Source of the DNA: Deltaproteobacteria bacterium
Lineage (GTDB): Bacteria > Desulfobacterota > B13-G15 > RBG-16-54-18
NCBI GenBank assembly: GCA_016927065.1
Contig: JAFGNJ010000024.1
Location: 1-64,000, forward strand
Length of the DNA: 64,000 nucleotides
Reading direction: 5' to 3'
The notes below the pieces were generated by a model. The model made no database searches. It was not told the origin of the DNA and worked only from the letters and a program-made list of their open reading frames with translations. Below, one piece after another: positions 48,889 through 60,883 of the stretch (positions are counted from its first letter, which is position 1; every line of letters starts with the position of its first letter). A program made the translations under genes and the position numbers.

Positions 48889-50247
48889 TTATTCTTTTTT
48901 AAGTTTATATTTCTTGATCTTATTATAAAGAGTAACGCGGTCGATTCCCAATTGCTCAGCTGATTTTTGAATGTTCCAATTATTTTCCGCGAGAATTTTT
49001 GTAATATGTTTTTTTTCAATCGATTTTATAGTCTTGTCATCTGAAGATGACACAGTTCTTTTTCCTTTTCTTGCTTGAGGAGATAAATGTAAATCTTCTG
49101 TCTTAATGATTTTTCCCTTGGTGATGACCATGGCACGTTCTATAGCATTTTCCAACTCCCTTACGTTTCCCGGCCAGTCATATGCCATTAAAAGGTTCAA
49201 CGCGTCTTCAGAAATTCGCTCCGCCTTTTCTCCCATTTCTATGTTACATTTTTCTATAAAGTGATGAACAAGGAGTGGAATATCCTCCTTGTGCTCTCTC
49301 AGGGGGGGGAGTTCTATGAATATAACATTCAGACGGTAGTAGAGGTCATTTCTAAAAGTGCCTTCATCTACAGCTTTTTTTAGGTCACGATTAGTAGCGG
49401 CGACGATGCGTACATCAACCCTGATCGGTTTTGTTCCTCCTACCCGCGTGAATTCCTTCTCTTGGAGAACGCGGAGAAGGTTCAGTTGCAACTTGGGGCT
49501 AATATCTCCAATTTCATCGAGGAATATGGTTCCTCCCTCGGCAAGCTCAAATTTACCTTTTTTTTGTGCAATGGCGTCGGTAAAGGCCCCCTTTTCGTGA
49601 CCGAACAACTCGCTCTCAAGCAAGGTTTCGGTGAGGGCAACACTCGAAAAGGGAATAAAAGGACCAGTAGCCCGCAGACTTTCATTGTGGATTGCCCGTG
49701 CCAGAAGTTCTTTGCCCGTCCCGCTTTCACCGAGGATGAGGACATTAGAGTTACTCTTGGCTATGGTATTGGCCAAGTCGAAGACCTTCTGCATCTTGGA
49801 ACACTTGCTTATCAGATCGTGAAATTGATACTGTTTCTTTAATTCCTTGCGGAGATAGGATATCTCTTTGATCAGCGATTGGCTCTCAACCAGCCGTTTG
49901 ATGAGCAAGGACAACTCTTCGGGGTTAAAGGGTTTGACCAAGTAGTCATAGGCCCCTACCTTCATGGCCTGTACCGCTGTATTGACGGTTGCATAGGCGG
50001 TGATAATGATTACCTGGGTCTCGGGCCAGTTCTCTTTGATTTTCCCCAGCAGTTCCAGACCGTCCATTTTGGGCATCTTGAGGTCAATGAGGGTGATATC
50101 CCAAGACTGTCCCCCGAACTTCTCCAAGGCCTTAAATCCATCCTCAGCCGCCTCCACCTGATATCCGTCCTCTCGCAACCAATCAAGCAATGATTCTCTT
50201 ACTATCTCTTCATCATCGACGACCAATATATGAATTTTTTCTCTCAT
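48889..50247 (-). CDS. NtrC-family sigma-54-dependent response regulator
   Basis: 452 aa. Receiver D55 in LIDLKMPKMDG; AAA+ domain with GESGTGKELLARAIH, Walker B GGTIFLDEIGD, and C-terminal Fis-type HTH (NNWNIQKSAEQLGIDRVTLYNKIKKY). The sigma-54-contacting loop reads GAFTDA rather than GAFTGA, a variant also seen in functional activators. It follows the heme-sensor kinase gene by 4 bp and is its obvious partner. Candidate targets are the cytochrome and GcvH-like operons upstream. Confidence 0.93.
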   Translation of the reverse strand: MREKIHILVVDDEEIVRESLLDWLREDGYQVEAAEDGFKALEKFGGQSWDITLIDLKMPKMDGLELLGKIKENWPETQVIIITAYATVNTAVQAMKVGAYDYLVKPFNPEELSLLIKRLVESQSLIKEISYLRKELKKQYQFHDLISKCSKMQKVFDLANTIAKSNSNVLILGESGTGKELLARAIHNESLRATGPFIPFSSVALTETLLESELFGHEKGAFTDAIAQKKGKFELAEGGTIFLDEIGDISPKLQLNLLRVLQEKEFTRVGGTKPIRVDVRIVAATNRDLKKAVDEGTFRNDLYYRLNVIFIELPPLREHKEDIPLLVHHFIEKCNIEMGEKAERISEDALNLLMAYDWPGNVRELENAIERAMVITKGKIIKTEDLHLSPQARKGKRTVSSSDDKTIKSIEKKHITKILAENNWNIQKSAEQLGIDRVTLYNKIKKYKLKKE

Positions 50248-50251
50248 TGTT

Positions 50252-51847
50252 CTATCTCCGCTGTGCTTTTATCAGAGATCCCCCTTTACGGGTTTCTTTA
50301 TTAGGCTGCACCTGTTCTTTCGGATCATGGGTTGTCTTGATTGCCGTTACCTCCGCAGGCAATTTAATGATGATGATTGCCCCTTTTCCTCTTTCGCTCT
50401 TCACCTGGATAGTCCCGTTGTGAGAGTTGATAATCCCATACACCACTGAAAGCCCCAATCCCGTTCCTTTCTCTTTGGAGGTAAAGAAGGGATCGAAGAT
50501 CTTGGAAATATCTTTATCATCGATTCCCCCCCCCGTGTCCTTGATCTCCACCTGTACCGCCTTCTTCCGTTTTGTTACCAAAGCAGTATCGACGGTTAAG
50601 ACACCTCCGTTGGGCATCGCCTCGCAGGCATTGAGGATGACATTGAGAAAGACTTGCCTCAGCTGGAGTGGGTCGGCCATTATGGGGAGGAGTTGGCCGT
50701 ATTTTTTTTCTAACGTAATCTCTTGCAGTGTTATCTGATTGGCCAGCAGCGAGAGGGCCTCATCGAGCACTTCGTTGATATCTACGTCAGGTTTTAATGC
50801 TGGTTCCCGCTGACGGGCGAAGTCAAGGAGGTTTCTTACGATCGTGCTGCACCGCTCTGTTTCCCGTTCCATAATCTCTAAATAGGAACGGAACTTGGGT
50901 ACCTCATCCTTCTTGATGATGCCATCGCTCAGCTTTCTCTCGATCAGCTTGGTATAGGTCAAGATGCCATTCAGGGGATTGTTTATCTCATGGGCGATGG
51001 TGGCGGACAGCTTTCCAATGGAGGCCAGTTTCTCTGATTGGAGGAGTTGGTATTGGGTTTCTTTGAGTCTCTGGGTCATGGTGTTGAAGGATTTTGCCAA
51101 TTGACCGATTTCGTCCTCGGAGCGGGAGGGGATTGCATGGTTGAAGTCTCCTGACGCTACCCTTGTTGTCCCTTCAGCCAATTCCCTGACCGGTCGATAA
51201 ACCGCCCGTTGGATAAATAGAACGATAATGGCGGAAACTGTCAGGATGGTGATGGCCATGAGCAGTATGGTTGTACTCCGAATGCCCCTTATTCTTGTAT
51301 CAGTTGCGTCGAGTGAAAGGGAAATATCAAGTACTCCCAAGACCTTCTGATCACGGGGATGGACATGGCAATCGGCGGTATAGCAATCGGGTTCATTGTA
51401 GATGGGAGTTATCATCCCCAAGATTCGGTATTCATCTGTCATGAAGATTCTGCTTCTCTCGGGGATGGCCAGCCTCTCCAGCGGTTCCTTCTCGGCGTGA
51501 CATGCGTAGCAGGCCTCGGCATGTTTGTCTACCATCTGCCCCATTTCTCCCTTGTCTGAGGAAAACATGATGGCCCCTTCTTTGTTGAATATACGTATCT
51601 TCTCTATCCCTTCTTGCGCGCCGATAGTCTCGATGGAGTTATAGAGGGCTTCTCTATAGTTGTGCAGCATGTCGAACCAAAGACTTCTCATTAAGGTACC
51701 ACTCAATTGTTTGGCCCCCAAGATGGCTTCATCAAGGAGATGTGCCCGTTGAGCGTTTAAATTAGCGTAGTTAAAGATGCCTATTATAATAACCGTGATG
51801 GCCACTACCCAAAAGATAAGCTTAACACTCAGTTTCCGATATGGCAT
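50252..51847 (-). CDS. Membrane histidine kinase with periplasmic c-type heme motifs
   Basis: 531 aa. TM1 (LIFWVVAITVIIIGIFNYANL), a periplasmic sensor of about 160 residues, TM2 (TTILLMAITILTVSAIIVLFI), HAMP (YRPVRELAEGTTRVASGDF), HisKA (TIAHEINNPLNGILTYTKLI) and HATPase (DTGGGIDD, GTGLGLSVVYGII). The sensor has CYACH, a canonical heme c site, and a second CYTADCH (CX4CH), so it probably senses redox state or a gas through covalent heme. It is located next to the respiratory genes it is likely to control. Confidence 0.92.
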   Translation of the reverse strand: MPYRKLSVKLIFWVVAITVIIIGIFNYANLNAQRAHLLDEAILGAKQLSGTLMRSLWFDMLHNYREALYNSIETIGAQEGIEKIRIFNKEGAIMFSSDKGEMGQMVDKHAEACYACHAEKEPLERLAIPERSRIFMTDEYRILGMITPIYNEPDCYTADCHVHPRDQKVLGVLDISLSLDATDTRIRGIRSTTILLMAITILTVSAIIVLFIQRAVYRPVRELAEGTTRVASGDFNHAIPSRSEDEIGQLAKSFNTMTQRLKETQYQLLQSEKLASIGKLSATIAHEINNPLNGILTYTKLIERKLSDGIIKKDEVPKFRSYLEIMERETERCSTIVRNLLDFARQREPALKPDVDINEVLDEALSLLANQITLQEITLEKKYGQLLPIMADPLQLRQVFLNVILNACEAMPNGGVLTVDTALVTKRKKAVQVEIKDTGGGIDDKDISKIFDPFFTSKEKGTGLGLSVVYGIINSHNGTIQVKSERGKGAIIIIKLPAEVTAIKTTHDPKEQVQPNKETRKGGSLIKAQRR

Positions 51848-52118: not shown

Positions 52119-52499
52119 CTACTTTTTATTCTTCTTTTCATGGCAATCAGTACATCCCACCGGGCCGCTCTCTATTTCTTGATGGCAACCAAGACACTGT
52201 CGATGATAGGCACCTTTAAGCCCTAATCTTGGGCCTTCCTGAGCAGGGTCATAGTGATAGACGATTATAGGTTCATGGCATTCTCCACACGAAGGGGTAG
52301 TTCCCTCTGGGCTATGATGATGGCAGCTGGCACAATCGCCGGCCATCTCGGCATGATACCCGTGTGAAAATTCGACCGGCCCATATCGTTTGGATAAGAG
52401 GTCTAAGGTGATGATCTCCGGCGCATCCGTAGGGTATGCCAGGGTAATGAATAAGAAGATGCTCACACATAGCATGGAAAGTACGGTCAATCTCATCAT
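52119..52499 (-). CDS. Periplasmic tetraheme cytochrome c (class III-like)
   Basis: 126 aa. Signal peptide MMRLTVLSMLCVSIFLFITLAYP, then four heme sites CASCH, CGECH, CLGCH and CTDCH; His-rich FSHGYHAEMAG precedes the first. The start at 52499 follows GGAGGTAAAGCG; the ORF-track extension to 52559 is not needed. Third gene after ferredoxin and NrfD-like subunits, so likely the electron acceptor or donor of a membrane quinone oxidoreductase. Confidence 0.9.
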   Translation of the reverse strand: MMRLTVLSMLCVSIFLFITLAYPTDAPEIITLDLLSKRYGPVEFSHGYHAEMAGDCASCHHHSPEGTTPSCGECHEPIIVYHYDPAQEGPRLGLKGAYHRQCLGCHQEIESGPVGCTDCHEKKNKK

Positions 52500-52573
52500 C
52501 GCTTTACCTCCTTGTGCACAGATGATTTTTTTGCTTGCATACCATCCGATATCAAACAAGCCCTTACAGTCCT

Positions 52574-53818
52574 TTATGCTGCATGTCTGTCCTCTTTAAT
52601 AGTCCATGCAGGCGGCTTCCGGTATACTGCCATCCTGTGGACGATCCACCGAAATACCCAGATATGCGCAAAGACAATAGTGAGGGCCATTACGACCTCT
52701 TGCCATGAAGGAATGTATCTTTCGCTTAAGGGTACATACCATTTGTAGGCGATAAAGACATAATTACACCTATTGATGATAATCCCGGCCATGGTGAGAA
52801 TAGCGGCCATACGGATGATCTTTATATTTCTATCTCGGAAACCCCGTAAGAAGAGTATGCAGGGAATGAGGGTGAGGCCAACTACCTCTGTCAGATACCA
52901 GTAACCCATGGGAGTAGCTATCAAAGACCAATTGGCCCCATGTATCAGGACGAGGGCTTTTAGAAAGAGATAGACGAACATCACCGCTGCGCATGTCTTG
53001 CCAAGACCAAGAACAATATCGTCATAAGACCTTCGAAAGTCATCGGTGAGCTGATTGCCGAAGACACGGGTACTTATGGTTCCTTCAAAGATGACCATAG
53101 AAAGTCCTGCAAAAACACTGGAGACCAAAAATAGTACTGGGATAAACTCGGTATACCAGAGGGGGTGGATATTGGGTTTTGCCATCATAACCAGTGCTCC
53201 CAGACCTGATTGATGAAGAGTCGAGAGGGTGATACCGAAGATTACGGCTCCGAGGGTAAAAGAATGGAGTATCTTTCTGATTTTCTTCAGCCCTAGCCAC
53301 TCAGCAAAGGCTGGGGAGAATTCGATAAATTCAGCTATCATATAGAGCAAAAAATGCCAGGCCACGAGGAAAAGAACGGAGTTTACCCCGAATTTGTTCC
53401 CGATGAGCGGATTTACAATGTTCCACCAGCGGCCTAGATCAAGAAAGATAGCGCCCGCATAAAAGACATAGGCGAGGAAACCGTTGAGGATCGTCGCCCG
53501 TATGATGGGATGGTATTTTTCAGATCGCAGGATATAGACGACGAAGGTGAGGACATAGGCCCCCCCTGCAAAGGCAACACCCACCATGACGTTGAAACCA
53601 ATCCATATGCCCCAGGGGAAGCCGGGGGCCTCGGTGACAACCGAACCTAACCCATTGATAAGGCGATATACGACGAGGATTATCCCGAGGGCCAGGATAG
53701 GGGCAGTAATAATGTTAAAGGGCGTAAAGATTTTGCCCCGTGGTTTTAGCTCAGCGATAATGAAAGCTATGAAATCCTTCAGCGTCCTTTTCTGCAGTGG
53801 TGTTTGTTTATCTGTCAT
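52574..53818 (-). CDS. NrfD/HybB-type integral membrane quinone-interacting subunit
   Basis: 414 aa with about ten membrane helices and motifs of the NrfD/PsrC/HybB family (GSVVTEAPGFPWGIWIGFNVMVGVAFAGGAYVLTF, ILNGFLAYVFYAGAIFLDLGRWW, TLHQSGLGALVMM, YWYLTEVVGLTLIP). It binds menaquinone and exchanges electrons with the attached ferredoxin subunit. Located 24 bp after the ferredoxin gene. Operon order FeS-NrfD-cyt c resembles CbcSTU of Geobacter or HybAB. Direction of electron flow cannot be told. Confidence 0.9.
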   Translation of the reverse strand: MTDKQTPLQKRTLKDFIAFIIAELKPRGKIFTPFNIITAPILALGIILVVYRLINGLGSVVTEAPGFPWGIWIGFNVMVGVAFAGGAYVLTFVVYILRSEKYHPIIRATILNGFLAYVFYAGAIFLDLGRWWNIVNPLIGNKFGVNSVLFLVAWHFLLYMIAEFIEFSPAFAEWLGLKKIRKILHSFTLGAVIFGITLSTLHQSGLGALVMMAKPNIHPLWYTEFIPVLFLVSSVFAGLSMVIFEGTISTRVFGNQLTDDFRRSYDDIVLGLGKTCAAVMFVYLFLKALVLIHGANWSLIATPMGYWYLTEVVGLTLIPCILFLRGFRDRNIKIIRMAAILTMAGIIINRCNYVFIAYKWYVPLSERYIPSWQEVVMALTIVFAHIWVFRWIVHRMAVYRKPPAWTIKEDRHAA

Positions 53819-53842
53819 CGCAGCCTCCTTTTTTTCGTAGTT

Positions 53843-54700
53843 TCAATCCTCTTCCTTCTGTGTAGCACGGTGGACGCCGAGCAGAAAGGCTGGCCACAAG
53901 ACGAAGATAATGGGAACGGCGTAGAGGAATCCTGTGCTCAATTCAGGGAGAGAGGTCGTTCCGAGGTCCGTACGAAAACCAAGCTGTTCAAACGGTACTG
54001 CGGAAAGGTACATAACGGAGGTACCACCCACTTCGGTTTCTCCGTAAATGTGGTGAACATAGCGATCGGGATGCTGATAAATTCGTGTCCTGGCCTCTTC
54101 TAAGAGCTCTCTCCTGGTGCCAAAGACTAAGGCCTCGGTTGGACAGGCCTCAACGCAGGCGGGTATCTCTCCCTTAACGAGCCGTTTATCCCAGCAGAGT
54201 AAACACTTTCTGATTCGAGGCGTAGGACTATGGGTTTCAAGCACCGCCTTCTCAAAGGGGCACGAAAATGCGCACATCTTGCAACCCATACAGTTTTCCG
54301 CCCACGTAACAGGGCCTTCTTCTTCTTTCTTCATCGCTTTCACGAGGCATGCCGCTACACACGCGGGTTGATTACAATGCATGCACCGCTTCACGGCATA
54401 TACGGTCCCTTTATCCGTTTCATAGCGATTGACGACCGTCCACTGAGTTTCTGTTGTGCGCCTCTCTTCTTTAAATACAGAGTCATCCTCGATATCAGGA
54501 ATCGGAAGATCGTATGTTTCTGCACACGCCAACTCACAACTGCGGCACCCAATGCACCGGGTGGTGTCGATGAGGATACTGAGAAACTCTGTTTCCTCAG
54601 CAACTCCTTGAGCATTAAGTCTACCTGGTGCTAGGATACCACCACACGTCATCCCTGCCATTCCGATTCCGATCCTTTTGAGAAATGTTCTCCTATCCAT
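53843..54700 (-). CDS. Tat-exported 4Fe-4S ferredoxin-type subunit (HybA/CbcT-like)
   Basis: 285 aa. Tat signal (RRTFLKRIGIGMAGMTCGGILAPG) then four cluster motifs: CIGCRSCELAC, CMHCNQPACVAACL, CMGCKMCAFSCPF and CLLCWDKRL...CVEACP. A C-terminal membrane anchor (AVPIIFVLWPAFLLGVH) follows, as in HybA. It is on the periplasmic side, bridging the NrfD-like subunit and the cytochrome. First gene of the operon. Confidence 0.92.
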   Translation of the reverse strand: MDRRTFLKRIGIGMAGMTCGGILAPGRLNAQGVAEETEFLSILIDTTRCIGCRSCELACAETYDLPIPDIEDDSVFKEERRTTETQWTVVNRYETDKGTVYAVKRCMHCNQPACVAACLVKAMKKEEEGPVTWAENCMGCKMCAFSCPFEKAVLETHSPTPRIRKCLLCWDKRLVKGEIPACVEACPTEALVFGTRRELLEEARTRIYQHPDRYVHHIYGETEVGGTSVMYLSAVPFEQLGFRTDLGTTSLPELSTGFLYAVPIIFVLWPAFLLGVHRATQKEED

Positions 54701-55231: not shown

Positions 55232-55927
55232 CTATTCTTGTGTCAGAAGAAATTCGCTCGCCATCTTATCCCATGCATCGGGAGAAAGGGCCTTGGCAAT
55301 GCCTGTTATGGGAATACCACCATCCTGATATACGACCCCAACTTCACCGCCCATGCGCTCCCGGAGTGCATCCGCCGTTTTCTCCATCCATGCTGTTGCC
55401 AGTTTACCTGTCAAGAGGTTTTTTACCGTTGCACGTTTGTTTTCGGGTTTGACTATCATAAGCCATCCCTTTCCGTAGGGATCCTGATTGACTAGGTCTG
55501 GGTTTTTTGCGATATCTTTATTCACTGCCACGATATCGCCGGTTACAGGCGAGAGCATAGTAATCGTTTTTGCATCAATCCCCAGTTTCCATCCAACATC
55601 GCCCTGCTCAATACGCGAACCAACCTTTGGAAGACTTATCCTATTGGACTTGCCCACAAGTCTCTGAGCGAAATCGTCTACACCGACCTTGACCAATTCA
55701 GCACCCTGTGGCATGACCCACGTATGTCCCTGATGGTAGAACAATCCCTCTGGGAGAGAGAACCATTGAGCAACCGACGCCATAGCCCTTCTGACCGCTT
55801 CAATACCTGACCGCGCAGGCACACGTAAAAATCTCCAGAAGGGGACAATGATTATGAGAAAACCGATCACGAGAAGATATTCAATACCTTTCGTCGCAAA
55901 GATGTCAACGTAAGTGAAACCTTCCAT
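55232..55927 (-). CDS. Membrane-anchored GcvH-like protein
   Basis: 231 aa. An N-terminal membrane helix (GIEYLLVIGFLIIIVPFWRFL) precedes a GcvH/biotinyl-lipoyl-like domain: GVDDFAQRLVGKSNRISLPKVGSRIEQGD, SPVTGDIVAVNKDIAKNPDLVNQDPYGKGWLMIV. A Lys in IDAKTIT lies near the usual lipoyl-lysine position but is one residue closer to the Pro of SPV than in classical GcvH. C-terminal GVVYQDGG recalls motifs in both operon partners. No glycine cleavage genes are nearby, and the locus is respiratory, so a normal GcvH role is unlikely. Function unknown. Confidence 0.82.
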   Translation of the reverse strand: MEGFTYVDIFATKGIEYLLVIGFLIIIVPFWRFLRVPARSGIEAVRRAMASVAQWFSLPEGLFYHQGHTWVMPQGAELVKVGVDDFAQRLVGKSNRISLPKVGSRIEQGDVGWKLGIDAKTITMLSPVTGDIVAVNKDIAKNPDLVNQDPYGKGWLMIVKPENKRATVKNLLTGKLATAWMEKTADALRERMGGEVGVVYQDGGIPITGIAKALSPDAWDKMASEFLLTQE

Positions 55928-56277: not shown

Positions 56278-57195
56278 TTAATTTTCCAAAAAGGTCTTTA
56301 TTAGTATGCCCCACTGGCTCTGAGTGACGACGTCCCGCAGGGTGTCTATCAACTGCCCGCCATCACTCATGGTAATCCCGATCTCCGTTTCCAGTACACC
56401 GTGGAGCCGATCTATCTCATCCTCCAACCACCTGCGTGCACCAGGGGTTGCTATAAACCCTTCTCCCCCTTGTTCCAGACGGTCTAATTCCGCTTCGGCT
56501 AGGCGCAACTCCACCAACCATCCCGCACCATAGGGATCGGTATTGATCAAAGACGTATCCCGACGAACCTCCTCATTGGCATTCATCAAGGTGCCGGAAA
56601 GGGGGGAGGCAATTTCGGCCGTGCCGTGGGAACAACGTATCCGAAGAAGGGGTTTATTGCGCTCCACATGTTCCTTACGCCTCGGGAAACTAATTTTGTC
56701 TATATCCCCCAACAGCCACTGGCCAAAGTCATCCAGTCCCAGCCGTACCTTTCCGTTGACTCGCTGCAGCCAGAGATGGCCGCGGTGATAATAGACTGTA
56801 TCATCCAAAAGAAAACCTCGCACCGTCATTGTCTCACCGGAGGCTCTATCACCCTGAGCGATCTGGCAATAGGCAGGACAATCGATGTAGGCCTCAGTGG
56901 TACAGGGACACTCCAGCTTGAAGGCGCTGGACGGTATCATTTTCTTCACCGGATAGACCTCACAAAAAAGAACCTCCTCTACTTCCAAATAGGGACAGAC
57001 CTTCTTATTACTGGAATGACCAGAAAGCCGCTCAGCATCTTTAGCACGATAGACAGGACAGGTAAGATGTTCCTCTTTTATACAGATATTGTCCTGGTGA
57101 TAGAGTCGATCGTAAGGAAGCATCTTCCTGACGGGGAAGCCCTTGCAAAAGGCCATCTTCTCATCTTTTAAAAAAGGACAATATGTTTCCATCAT
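56278..57195 (-). CDS. Cysteine-rich protein with degenerate GcvH-like domain
   Basis: 305 aa. The N-terminal half has two tandem Cys modules of the form CPFL/CPYL, FC, PVRKM/PVKKM, then C and CPVY/CPAY (4-5 Cys each), possible Fe-S or zinc sites. The C-terminal half is GcvH-like (VRLGLDDFGQWLLGDIDKISFPRR, ASPLSGTLMNANEEV, INTDPYGAGWLVELRL), but the lipoyl-lysine position has no Lys (RCSHGTAEI), so it cannot be lipoylated in the usual way. Ends with GITMSDGG. A sigma-54-like promoter lies 30 bp upstream. Function unknown. Confidence 0.82.
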   Translation of the reverse strand: MMETYCPFLKDEKMAFCKGFPVRKMLPYDRLYHQDNICIKEEHLTCPVYRAKDAERLSGHSSNKKVCPYLEVEEVLFCEVYPVKKMIPSSAFKLECPCTTEAYIDCPAYCQIAQGDRASGETMTVRGFLLDDTVYYHRGHLWLQRVNGKVRLGLDDFGQWLLGDIDKISFPRRKEHVERNKPLLRIRCSHGTAEIASPLSGTLMNANEEVRRDTSLINTDPYGAGWLVELRLAEAELDRLEQGGEGFIATPGARRWLEDEIDRLHGVLETEIGITMSDGGQLIDTLRDVVTQSQWGILIKTFLEN

Positions 57196-58200: not shown

Positions 58201-60174
58201 ATGATTTGGGTTGCAAATAAGAGGAAGCGAGGGGGCGTTGCTCGCTTTTTCGTCACTGTTAGTTTAGTGTCTGCGGTCCTCTTTGTGTGGACTGGCATGG
58301 CTGTTTCCTTCGATAATGAAACATGTCTCGAATGCCACGGGAGCCGGGATATCCTCGAGATGAGCAAGGAAGATCGACTCGAGATGGTCGTCCCTACCCC
58401 CGACAAAAAGGAAGTGTATAAAGGTGAACTTACCCTTTATGTGGATTATGAGCAGTTTCGTTCCACAGTCCACCAAGATCTGAGTTGTGTTGATTGCCAT
58501 AACGATATCGAGGATGTCCCCCATCCACAAAGGCTGGAGATGGTTGATTGCTCGCAGTGCCATGAAGTGATAGTCGGTCAATACAATAAGAGCAAACATG
58601 CACAGGTCAGCCTCAGCCTCTGTTTTGAGTGCCACAACCCCCATGCTACTACTTCTTTCAGGCAGCTCTCCCAAAAAGAGCGGACGGGAATCTGTCTGCA
58701 GTGTCACGAGAAAAATGGGCATGGGTGGTTGCCCCAGCAAGAGCTCCACTTCCAATATTTGGAGTGCACGGCCTGTCACTCTCCCCAGGCAGTAAAGGGG
58801 CTTTTTTTCTATCTCACAGCCCAGGGAAAGGATGGAGAGCGGTTTAACCTCTCCTACCCTCAATTGGAGGAAGCCACCCGTGGATATCAGGGCGATGTGG
58901 CAAAGGCCATTGATCACAATGGAAACGGCATCGTGGAAGTGCATGAGATCAACAGGTTTATCGCCAAGCTACAGGAACAGGGGATACAGTCCCCTCGTCT
59001 TCAGGAGCGGGTGCTGGTATTACAGCCGTATCATAATTTTACTGATGAGGTTAAGCAGATTAAGGATTGCACGATGTGCCATGTCTCAGGTGCACCTTTT
59101 TACTCTCAGGTGATGCTCAGGATACCTGAGGTGAGCGGTGGATGGCGCACGGTCAAGATGGACAAGGCCATCGTCGGCAAGCTCCCATCTATTCCCTCTA
59201 AAGACTATTACTTAACAACGGTTCATGGCCAGAGTGGTGTGGAATGCGTTGATTGCCATGCTGATTTGACCGTCTTGCGTGCAGGGGAGGGATTTGAGGT
59301 AAAAGGACTGAAAACGCCCGTCTGTGAACACTGCCATGCGGATGTGATGACAGAATATGAGGACAGCCTTCATGCCAAGGTCAGCGAAGAAATCTGTTTT
59401 GGTTGCCATGATCCCCATTCCAGCGTCCCCTTCAAAGAGCTGAATGTTGAACAACGCCAAGCCATCTGCACCAAGTGTCATGATCCAGAGCGGGGACACG
59501 AGTGGCTGCCTCAAAAGGAACTGCATTTCAAGGCCCTGGAGTGCACCATGTGTCATGCCCCTCAAGCGGAAAAAGGGATTGTCTTTTACCTTCAGAGGGT
59601 GGATCAAGAAGGAAAAGCGGAGCGACTTGAATACGGTGAGCTAGCCACGTTGCTGGATGTGCAACAACCTGATTTGACAAAGCTCCTGGATAGCGACAGC
59701 AATGGATTTTTGGAGGATCGAGAAGTCCTCACTTTTCTCACTGCATTAAAGGAAAAGAGTCCCGGAGAAGAGATAAAGCTGGGGGTGAGGATCTTGGTTC
59801 TCAATCCTTCCCATAACTATACCGATAAGGGGACCAAGGCAAAGGATTGTTCCCTCTGCCACTCCTCCGGGGCGGGCTTCTACTCGAAATTGATAATGGA
59901 GATACCTGAGAGCGAAGGTGGTATCAGAACCCTCCCCATGGACAAAAGCATCCTTGCCGGGATGTATCGCATTAGCGATATTTATTTGTTGGGGGAGGGT
60001 AAGATTTCTAAGCGAGATATCGCAGACCTCATGTTTGCCGTGAGGAAGATCGGTTATAAGTGGCTGGATGTGATTGGTATATTGTTCATTTTAGGCGGCT
60101 TAGGTTTTGTTGGGGTGCATACGTTTCTCAGGATAATCACCATAGGGACGCGAAGAAAAAGACGGAACAAATAA
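58201..60174 (+). CDS. 13-heme membrane-anchored cytochrome c with two EF-hand loops
   Basis: 657 aa. Signal or anchor helix (FFVTVSLVSAVLFVWTGMAV), then 13 CxxCH sites (CLECH, CVDCH, CSQCH, CFECH, CLQCH, CTACH, CTMCH, CVDCH, CEHCH, CFGCH, CTKCH, CTMCH, CSLCH) and a C-terminal helix (VIGILFILGGLGFVGVHTFL). Two halves repeat each other: WLPQQELHFQYLECTACH against WLPQKELHFKALECTMCH, and each carries a canonical EF-hand loop (DHNGNGIVEVHE; DSDSNGFLEDRE) inserted between heme clusters. Start at ATG 58201 after GGGGAAG; the upstream extension is not signal-like. Probably a periplasmic electron conduit with the cyt b next door. Confidence 0.92.
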   Translation: MIWVANKRKRGGVARFFVTVSLVSAVLFVWTGMAVSFDNETCLECHGSRDILEMSKEDRLEMVVPTPDKKEVYKGELTLYVDYEQFRSTVHQDLSCVDCHNDIEDVPHPQRLEMVDCSQCHEVIVGQYNKSKHAQVSLSLCFECHNPHATTSFRQLSQKERTGICLQCHEKNGHGWLPQQELHFQYLECTACHSPQAVKGLFFYLTAQGKDGERFNLSYPQLEEATRGYQGDVAKAIDHNGNGIVEVHEINRFIAKLQEQGIQSPRLQERVLVLQPYHNFTDEVKQIKDCTMCHVSGAPFYSQVMLRIPEVSGGWRTVKMDKAIVGKLPSIPSKDYYLTTVHGQSGVECVDCHADLTVLRAGEGFEVKGLKTPVCEHCHADVMTEYEDSLHAKVSEEICFGCHDPHSSVPFKELNVEQRQAICTKCHDPERGHEWLPQKELHFKALECTMCHAPQAEKGIVFYLQRVDQEGKAERLEYGELATLLDVQQPDLTKLLDSDSNGFLEDREVLTFLTALKEKSPGEEIKLGVRILVLNPSHNYTDKGTKAKDCSLCHSSGAGFYSKLIMEIPESEGGIRTLPMDKSILAGMYRISDIYLLGEGKISKRDIADLMFAVRKIGYKWLDVIGILFILGGLGFVGVHTFLRIITIGTRRKRRNK

Positions 60175-60202: not shown

Positions 60203-60883
60203 ATGGCGCGGCGAAAGAAAGTCCGGCAGAAGAGAGATCAGGAGAAAAAAGAAATATTGCAACCCCTCGTGGTACGAATTTGGCACTGGATCCATGCCCT
60301 TGCCATCGTCCTTTTGGTGCTGACCGGAATACAATTGCGATTTCCAGATTTGATTTCCTGGTTCGGGACCTTCAAAACCGCAGTGGACGTTCATAATATC
60401 TTTGGGTTCATCGTGTTGTTCGATTACGTGCTCTGGTTTGGATTTTATCTAATAACTGGGGAGTTGTTCAAACAATATGCCCCTACGCCTGAGGATTTTA
60501 CCATCGGAATCCCGACGCAATCGACGTACTACTTTGCCCGCATCTTCTTTGGTGATCCCCCACCTTTTGAGCCTACACCAAAGGCCAAATTTAACTCCTT
60601 GCAGAAGACCACCTACTTCGGCATCATGTTTGTTCTTGTCCCCCTTCAGGTAGTGACCGGTGTTCTCCTTTGGGATTTGGAGAGATTCCGTCCTTTAATA
60701 GCGGCGCTGGGTGGCGTAAGGGTTCTTGATGCCTTTCATATTATTCTCGCCTATATATTTACGTCCTTTTTGATTGTTCACATCTACCTTTCTACGTTGG
60801 GGCATACCTTCTTTTCCCACTTTAAGGCCATGATCGTGGGATATGAGGAAAAGGAGACAGGACATACTCAGACGTCCGCATAA
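60203..60883 (+). CDS. Di-heme cytochrome b (b561 / HydC-FdnI type)
   Basis: 226 aa with four membrane helices and heme-ligand His candidates in RIWHWIHALAIVLL, DVHNIFGFIVLFDY, DAFHIILAYIF and HIYLSTLGH. Prokaryotic cytochrome b561 family, which oxidises menaquinol and passes electrons to a periplasmic cytochrome. Starts 29 bp after the 13-heme gene, so together they resemble the bc-type Cbc complexes of Geobacter. Confidence 0.9.
   Translation: MARRKKVRQKRDQEKKEILQPLVVRIWHWIHALAIVLLVLTGIQLRFPDLISWFGTFKTAVDVHNIFGFIVLFDYVLWFGFYLITGELFKQYAPTPEDFTIGIPTQSTYYFARIFFGDPPPFEPTPKAKFNSLQKTTYFGIMFVLVPLQVVTGVLLWDLERFRPLIAALGGVRVLDAFHIILAYIFTSFLIVHIYLSTLGHTFFSHFKAMIVGYEEKETGHTQTSA

Follow-up and report, generated by a model that had tools for sequence, protein, structure and literature searches.

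The window, that is, the whole stretch of 64,000 nucleotides analysed here, contains at positions 58201-60174 of the forward strand an open reading frame that starts with ATG and encodes a protein of 657 amino acids. Thirteen CXXCH motifs were counted in this protein (at residues 42, 96, 117, 141, 165, 189, 290, 349, 375, 399, 423, 448 and 550), in agreement with the 13 hemes given by the first-pass annotation of this DNA. A signal-like segment is found at the N-terminus, and a single transmembrane helix, containing an invariant histidine (His640), is followed by a basic tail at the C-terminus (60052-60171); both the sequence and a long C-terminal helix in the predicted structure support the presence of a membrane anchor after the heme domain. 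The full-length model, in which the hemes were left out, was of poor quality (mean pLDDT of 59.8).

The two halves of the protein align end to end with 41% identity, which bears out the internal duplication that had been read from the sequence. The N-module (58423-59187 by alignment) carries six hemes and is preceded, just upstream, by a leading heme with the motif CLECH at residue 42 (58324-58338), found in this module only. The C-module (59179-60171 by alignment) comprises six hemes plus the membrane anchor. The last two hemes of each module flank a subdomain with an EF-hand loop: at 58780-59193, between the hemes at residues 189 and 290, in the N-module, and at 59557-59973, between those at residues 448 and 550, in the C-module. 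All these features are on the forward strand.

The conservation of histidines outside the CXXCH motifs suggests how the hemes are coordinated. Six of them are invariant in each six-heme module, one of which shifts a column between subgroups. An extra histidine, followed by proline, is present within two columns in the N-modules and in the 7-heme proteins, and in none of eight C-modules; the C-modules that lack this HP histidine also lack the leading heme. The HP histidine, residue 108, is thus the probable distal ligand of the leading heme at residue 42, and the simplest reading of the alignment would be one distal histidine per heme, all hemes being bis-His coordinated in a wire and none serving as a catalytic centre. 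Within the membrane helix at the C-terminus, His640 was invariant in all modules reaching that far, and might contact a heme b or a quinone. A similar H...R arrangement is visible in the anchor of a sister family of heptaheme cytochromes that lacks the EF-hand domain (see below).

The next gene, at 60203-60883 on the same strand, encodes a CbcB-like b-type cytochrome (PF01292, E = 4e-25). Its histidines 28, 64, 179 and 193 were invariant in 37 of 37 sequences, which is enough for two hemes b. A b561-type gene directly adjoins the CbcA-type gene in all 32 distinct full-module relatives, a count that includes one protein (L039) in which CbcA and CbcB are fused; the constancy of this pairing and the fusion support the existence of a physical complex. 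Other neighbours of the pair are an archaemetzincin gene and an open reading frame that reads, by eye, as an aminotransferase.

Several other genes were noticed in the window and in other loci. On the reverse strand of the window, a TmcA-like tetraheme c3, an NrfD-like membrane protein and a 4Fe-4S protein are encoded in a row (52119-54700) and could form a second membrane redox complex and supply a candidate periplasmic partner. The reverse strand also encodes a sensor histidine kinase with Cys/His motifs (CYACH and similar) in its sensor part (50252-51847), adjoined by a sigma-54-type response regulator (48889-50247), and two GcvH-like proteins (55232-55927 and 56278-57195), each unusually extended at the N-terminus, in one case by an HmcD-like membrane segment and in the other by a Cys-rich stretch. 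Elsewhere in the host genome, a protein of 726 amino acids (L135:826-3006, reverse strand) seemingly has membrane helices at its N-terminus, together with a stretch like cytochrome b5 and a multiheme c portion. In a dense multiheme cluster of another locus (L141:4418-12739), a two-module relative with 12 CXXCH motifs is followed by a b561 gene and then by ORFs for 11, 8 and 15 hemes.

As to the identity of the 13-heme protein, Pfam and NCBIfam returned only generic multiheme models, the specific families scoring far below their cut-offs. Among named relatives, those closest over the whole length come from genomes of uncultured Deltaproteobacteria, for example RBG_13_52_11 (76% identity). Alignment and a profile search of the phylum established the homology of the modules, with E values down to 1e-144 within the window family and 1e-115 for the 7-heme forms. 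Many of these same-phylum relatives are 7-heme proteins of one module, so that the one-half homologues by which the duplication was to be traced turned out to be the usual form of the family. In one of them (G033, locus L136) the gene order is a 7-heme c-type cytochrome with an EF-hand, a b-type cytochrome, a 12-CXXCH c-type ORF, a monoheme ORF and further ORFs, close to that of the published cbcABCDE, which encodes a 7-heme c, a b-type, an 11-heme c and a monoheme c-type cytochrome followed by a membrane protein (PMC10470525). On the basis of this gene order and of the domain layout, the proteins of one module are taken here to be CbcA, the heptaheme c subunit of CbcBA, and that of the window to be a CbcA with two modules. 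As it has 13 hemes (7 + 6) and not seven, it is better filed as a two-module variant than as CbcA itself.

The likeness to the Geobacter CbcA of CbcBA and CbcABCDE extends to the module sequence and the 7-heme layout of the N-module (PMC10470525), to the C-terminal anchor with its invariant histidine, to the adjoining b-type cytochrome and to the EF-hand loop between the last two hemes. In contrast to the Geobacter protein, that of the window has two modules with 13 hemes and belongs to a different lineage, and the pair has no cbcC-, cbcD- or cbcE-like genes alongside. By sequence, the nearest solved structure is PDB 28pb_A, a 'Cytochrome c' of 278 amino acids (E = 5e-26), which has one module instead of two; the match spans the N-module including the EF-hand loop, DTNNDNYISLAE in that chain, and the EF subdomain alone matched with E = 2e-24. 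Fold searches against a PDB library extending to 8 April 2026 gave no confident match for either the full-length model or the EF subdomain (best E about 0.16-0.17), and 28pb was absent among the fold matches listed.

After removal of long branches, a tree of the modules divided cleanly into N-modules on one side and C-modules on the other (support 100/99), which rules out a recent or repeated duplication. Independent duplications, modelled by holding together the modules of one genome or of one family, were rejected by the AU test (p = 4e-6 and 2e-4). This split and these rejections support a single old duplication, which would predate the separation of several families (that of the window protein, G008, G268, G364 and G180). 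The one-module, CbcB-fused L039 branches just outside the two-module group. In a 7-heme protein encoded at L006:1405-2583 the body groups with the N-modules and the tail is C-module-like; it is probably a secondary collapse, by internal deletion, of a two-module ancestor.

The first-pass annotation also drew attention to one canonical EF-hand loop in each half, at equivalent places, and this observation held with its coordinates unchanged. Loop 1, DHNGNGIVEVHE (residues 238-249, 58912-58947), and loop 2, DSDSNGFLEDRE (residues 497-508, 59689-59724), both on the forward strand, match PROSITE PS00018 exactly, share the same alignment columns and lie each between the last two hemes of its own module. 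When the protein was shuffled, at least one PS00018 match appeared in 0.17% of the sequences and two matches in none of 20,000, a result that, together with the conservation across modules described below, rules out a chance motif. Both loops scored below the cut-off of the Pfam EF-hand models, and a profile of the EF subdomain matched EF-hand proteins in the PDB, with E = 6e-12 for a chain named 'Calcium binding protein 2'. A prediction in which the loops do not form helix-loop-helix sites, named beforehand as the refuting outcome, was not obtained: this conformation was predicted with confidence for the EF region of the full-length model (pLDDT about 80-87) and for the C-module subdomain modelled alone (pLDDT 88-95 over the EF part), where helices 40-44 and 54-67 flank the loop with block means of 91-95.

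Among 41 non-redundant modules of the family, position 1 of the loop is Asp in 40, position 3 is Asp or Asn in 39, and positions 5 (Asp, Asn or Ser) and 12 (Glu) are kept in all. An exact PS00018 match was found in 33 of the 41, most of the others being off by one position. The domain that bears the loop spans about 100 residues and separates the last two hemes of each module. The ligand pattern is lost in the C-module of one relative (L029), whose loop reads NKAQSGRVSAFE, which shows that not every member of the family depends on the site. EF-hands had been called unusual in multiheme cytochromes; this was true in general, as the motif appeared in only one of 191 other distinct multiheme ORFs of the loci examined, and did not apply within the CbcA family, where it is nearly universal. 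The single exception, a nine-CXXCH cytochrome of a Lysobacterales MAG (L099:6836-8707), has the loop DVDGDGALTGSE about 105 residues past a heme segment, WLPxxxxHFxxLxC, resembling that of CbcA modules. No relevant paper on EF-hands of multiheme cytochromes turned up in literature searches, and no statement of a calcium site for CbcA was found in searchable papers; judged from the alignments, the EF-hand loop is thus a conserved and apparently undiscussed part of the whole CbcA family.

A related family of heptaheme cytochromes encoded beside b561 genes does not share this domain (L054:7278-8687, L058:7821-8771, L059:476-1414, L065:800-1798 and L068:7818-8636; hosts include Gammaproteobacteria, Thiohalocapsa, Magnetococcales, Thiomargarita and a Bacteroidetes MAG, among others). 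These proteins resemble the CbcA modules in their seven hemes, in an anchor with H and R residues and in the b561 neighbour, but only 22-29 residues separate the starts of their last two CXXCH motifs, where the CbcA modules have about 100, which implies that the EF domain was either inserted in one branch or lost from one.

Taken together, these data are likely to be best explained by a CbcBA-type complex in which the heme wire has been doubled and each module holds a structural calcium site near its end. The genes at 58201-60174 and 60203-60883 would encode an inner-membrane quinone:periplasmic-cytochrome oxidoreductase, whose b-type subunit would use its two hemes b to exchange electrons with the pool of (mena)quinone. 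The bis-His hemes of the c-type subunit, which is anchored by its one C-terminal helix, would serve as a wire that conducts these electrons to carriers in the periplasm, or the flow would be the reverse. One old duplication of a CbcA module would have lengthened this wire from 7 to 7 + 6 hemes. Within each module, a small beta/helix domain with a single EF-hand would sit between the last two hemes, and most likely hold a structural calcium ion that fixes these hemes in place. Two observations speak against this reading of the site: EF-hands normally act in pairs and each module has one only, and the ligand pattern is lost in the C-module of L029. Quinone reactivity, the direction of electron flow, the distances between hemes and calcium binding with its structural role are what we infer. 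In Geobacter the electrons of CbcBA run outward, and an inward flow has been proposed for Seep-SRB2 (PMC10553843); the need for CbcA in respiration at low redox potential is known for Geobacter only (PMC12307469, PMC9129911). A search for dsrA in the genome of the host, which is 93.6% complete, gave no hit, and this organism is therefore unlikely to be a sulfate reducer of the Dsr type.

The role of the cation could be read differently. There is a small chance that the loop has lost calcium binding in vivo and persists as part of the fold, its acidic residues being kept for folding or for docking of a partner, as the presence of a single EF-hand and the degenerate C-module loop of L029 would allow; the retention of the chelating positions 1, 3, 5 and 12 across deep divergence would be difficult to account for if no cation were bound. 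It had also been proposed that calcium could set the geometry of the hemes or their redox coupling, which is plausible and fits the position of the loop, flanked by the last two hemes of its module. Another reading makes the EF-hand a sensor, calcium switching the electron flow between hemes and so tying respiration to external calcium. This we regard as unlikely: the location of the loop and the strong constraint on its ligand positions speak for a switch, but each module has only one, isolated EF-hand, the periplasm that surrounds the protein is as a rule rich in calcium and controls it poorly, no regulatory partner was seen, and the ligand pattern is lost in L029. The single EF-hands and the calcium-rich compartment therefore favour a structural ion over sensing. 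That CbcBA-type complexes as a class respond to calcium, the ion at the EF-hand gating the passage of electrons between the b subunit and the wire and the doubling having added a second calcium-controlled step, is similarly a long shot. Finally, we consider it very improbable that the 13-heme protein transfers electrons as a subunit of some terminal reductase (of the thiosulfate, DMSO/decaheme or nitrite reductase type) and not of a CbcBA-type complex, since the scores that would suggest it fall below cut-off (130 bits against 204 for the b subunit with the thiosulfate reductase cytochrome b model, and 68 against 192 for the c subunit with the decaheme DmsE model, TIGR03508, so that both PhsABC, with its PhsC-like b subunit, and a DmsE/MtrA-type cytochrome were rejected), no gene for a molybdopterin catalytic subunit was seen when the neighbours of the pair were read by eye, and every heme has a conserved candidate distal histidine, none being left catalytic.

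The proposed structural calcium ion of the CbcBA-type wire can be set beside other calcium systems. The pentaheme nitrite reductase NrfA is a multiheme cytochrome that in most of its forms needs calcium for activity (PMC12285233). In contrast to the sites described here, its calcium lies near the catalytic heme, and its module is unrelated to CbcA. To our knowledge, no EF-hand domain is known in NrfA. The EF-hands of calmodulin and EhCaBP resemble those of the CbcA type in the chemistry of the loop and in the flanking helices, but the latter are single and placed in a beta-containing domain between hemes.

CbcBA permits Geobacter to respire close to the energetic limit, and its reverse operation has been proposed in the syntrophic partners of methane-oxidising archaea. 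A family-wide site of the calcium type in CbcA would be a design feature that the descriptions we found do not mention, and for the role of its domain the EF-less heptaheme/b561 family offers a natural comparison. The doubled form of CbcA shows that such wires can grow by duplication of a whole module.
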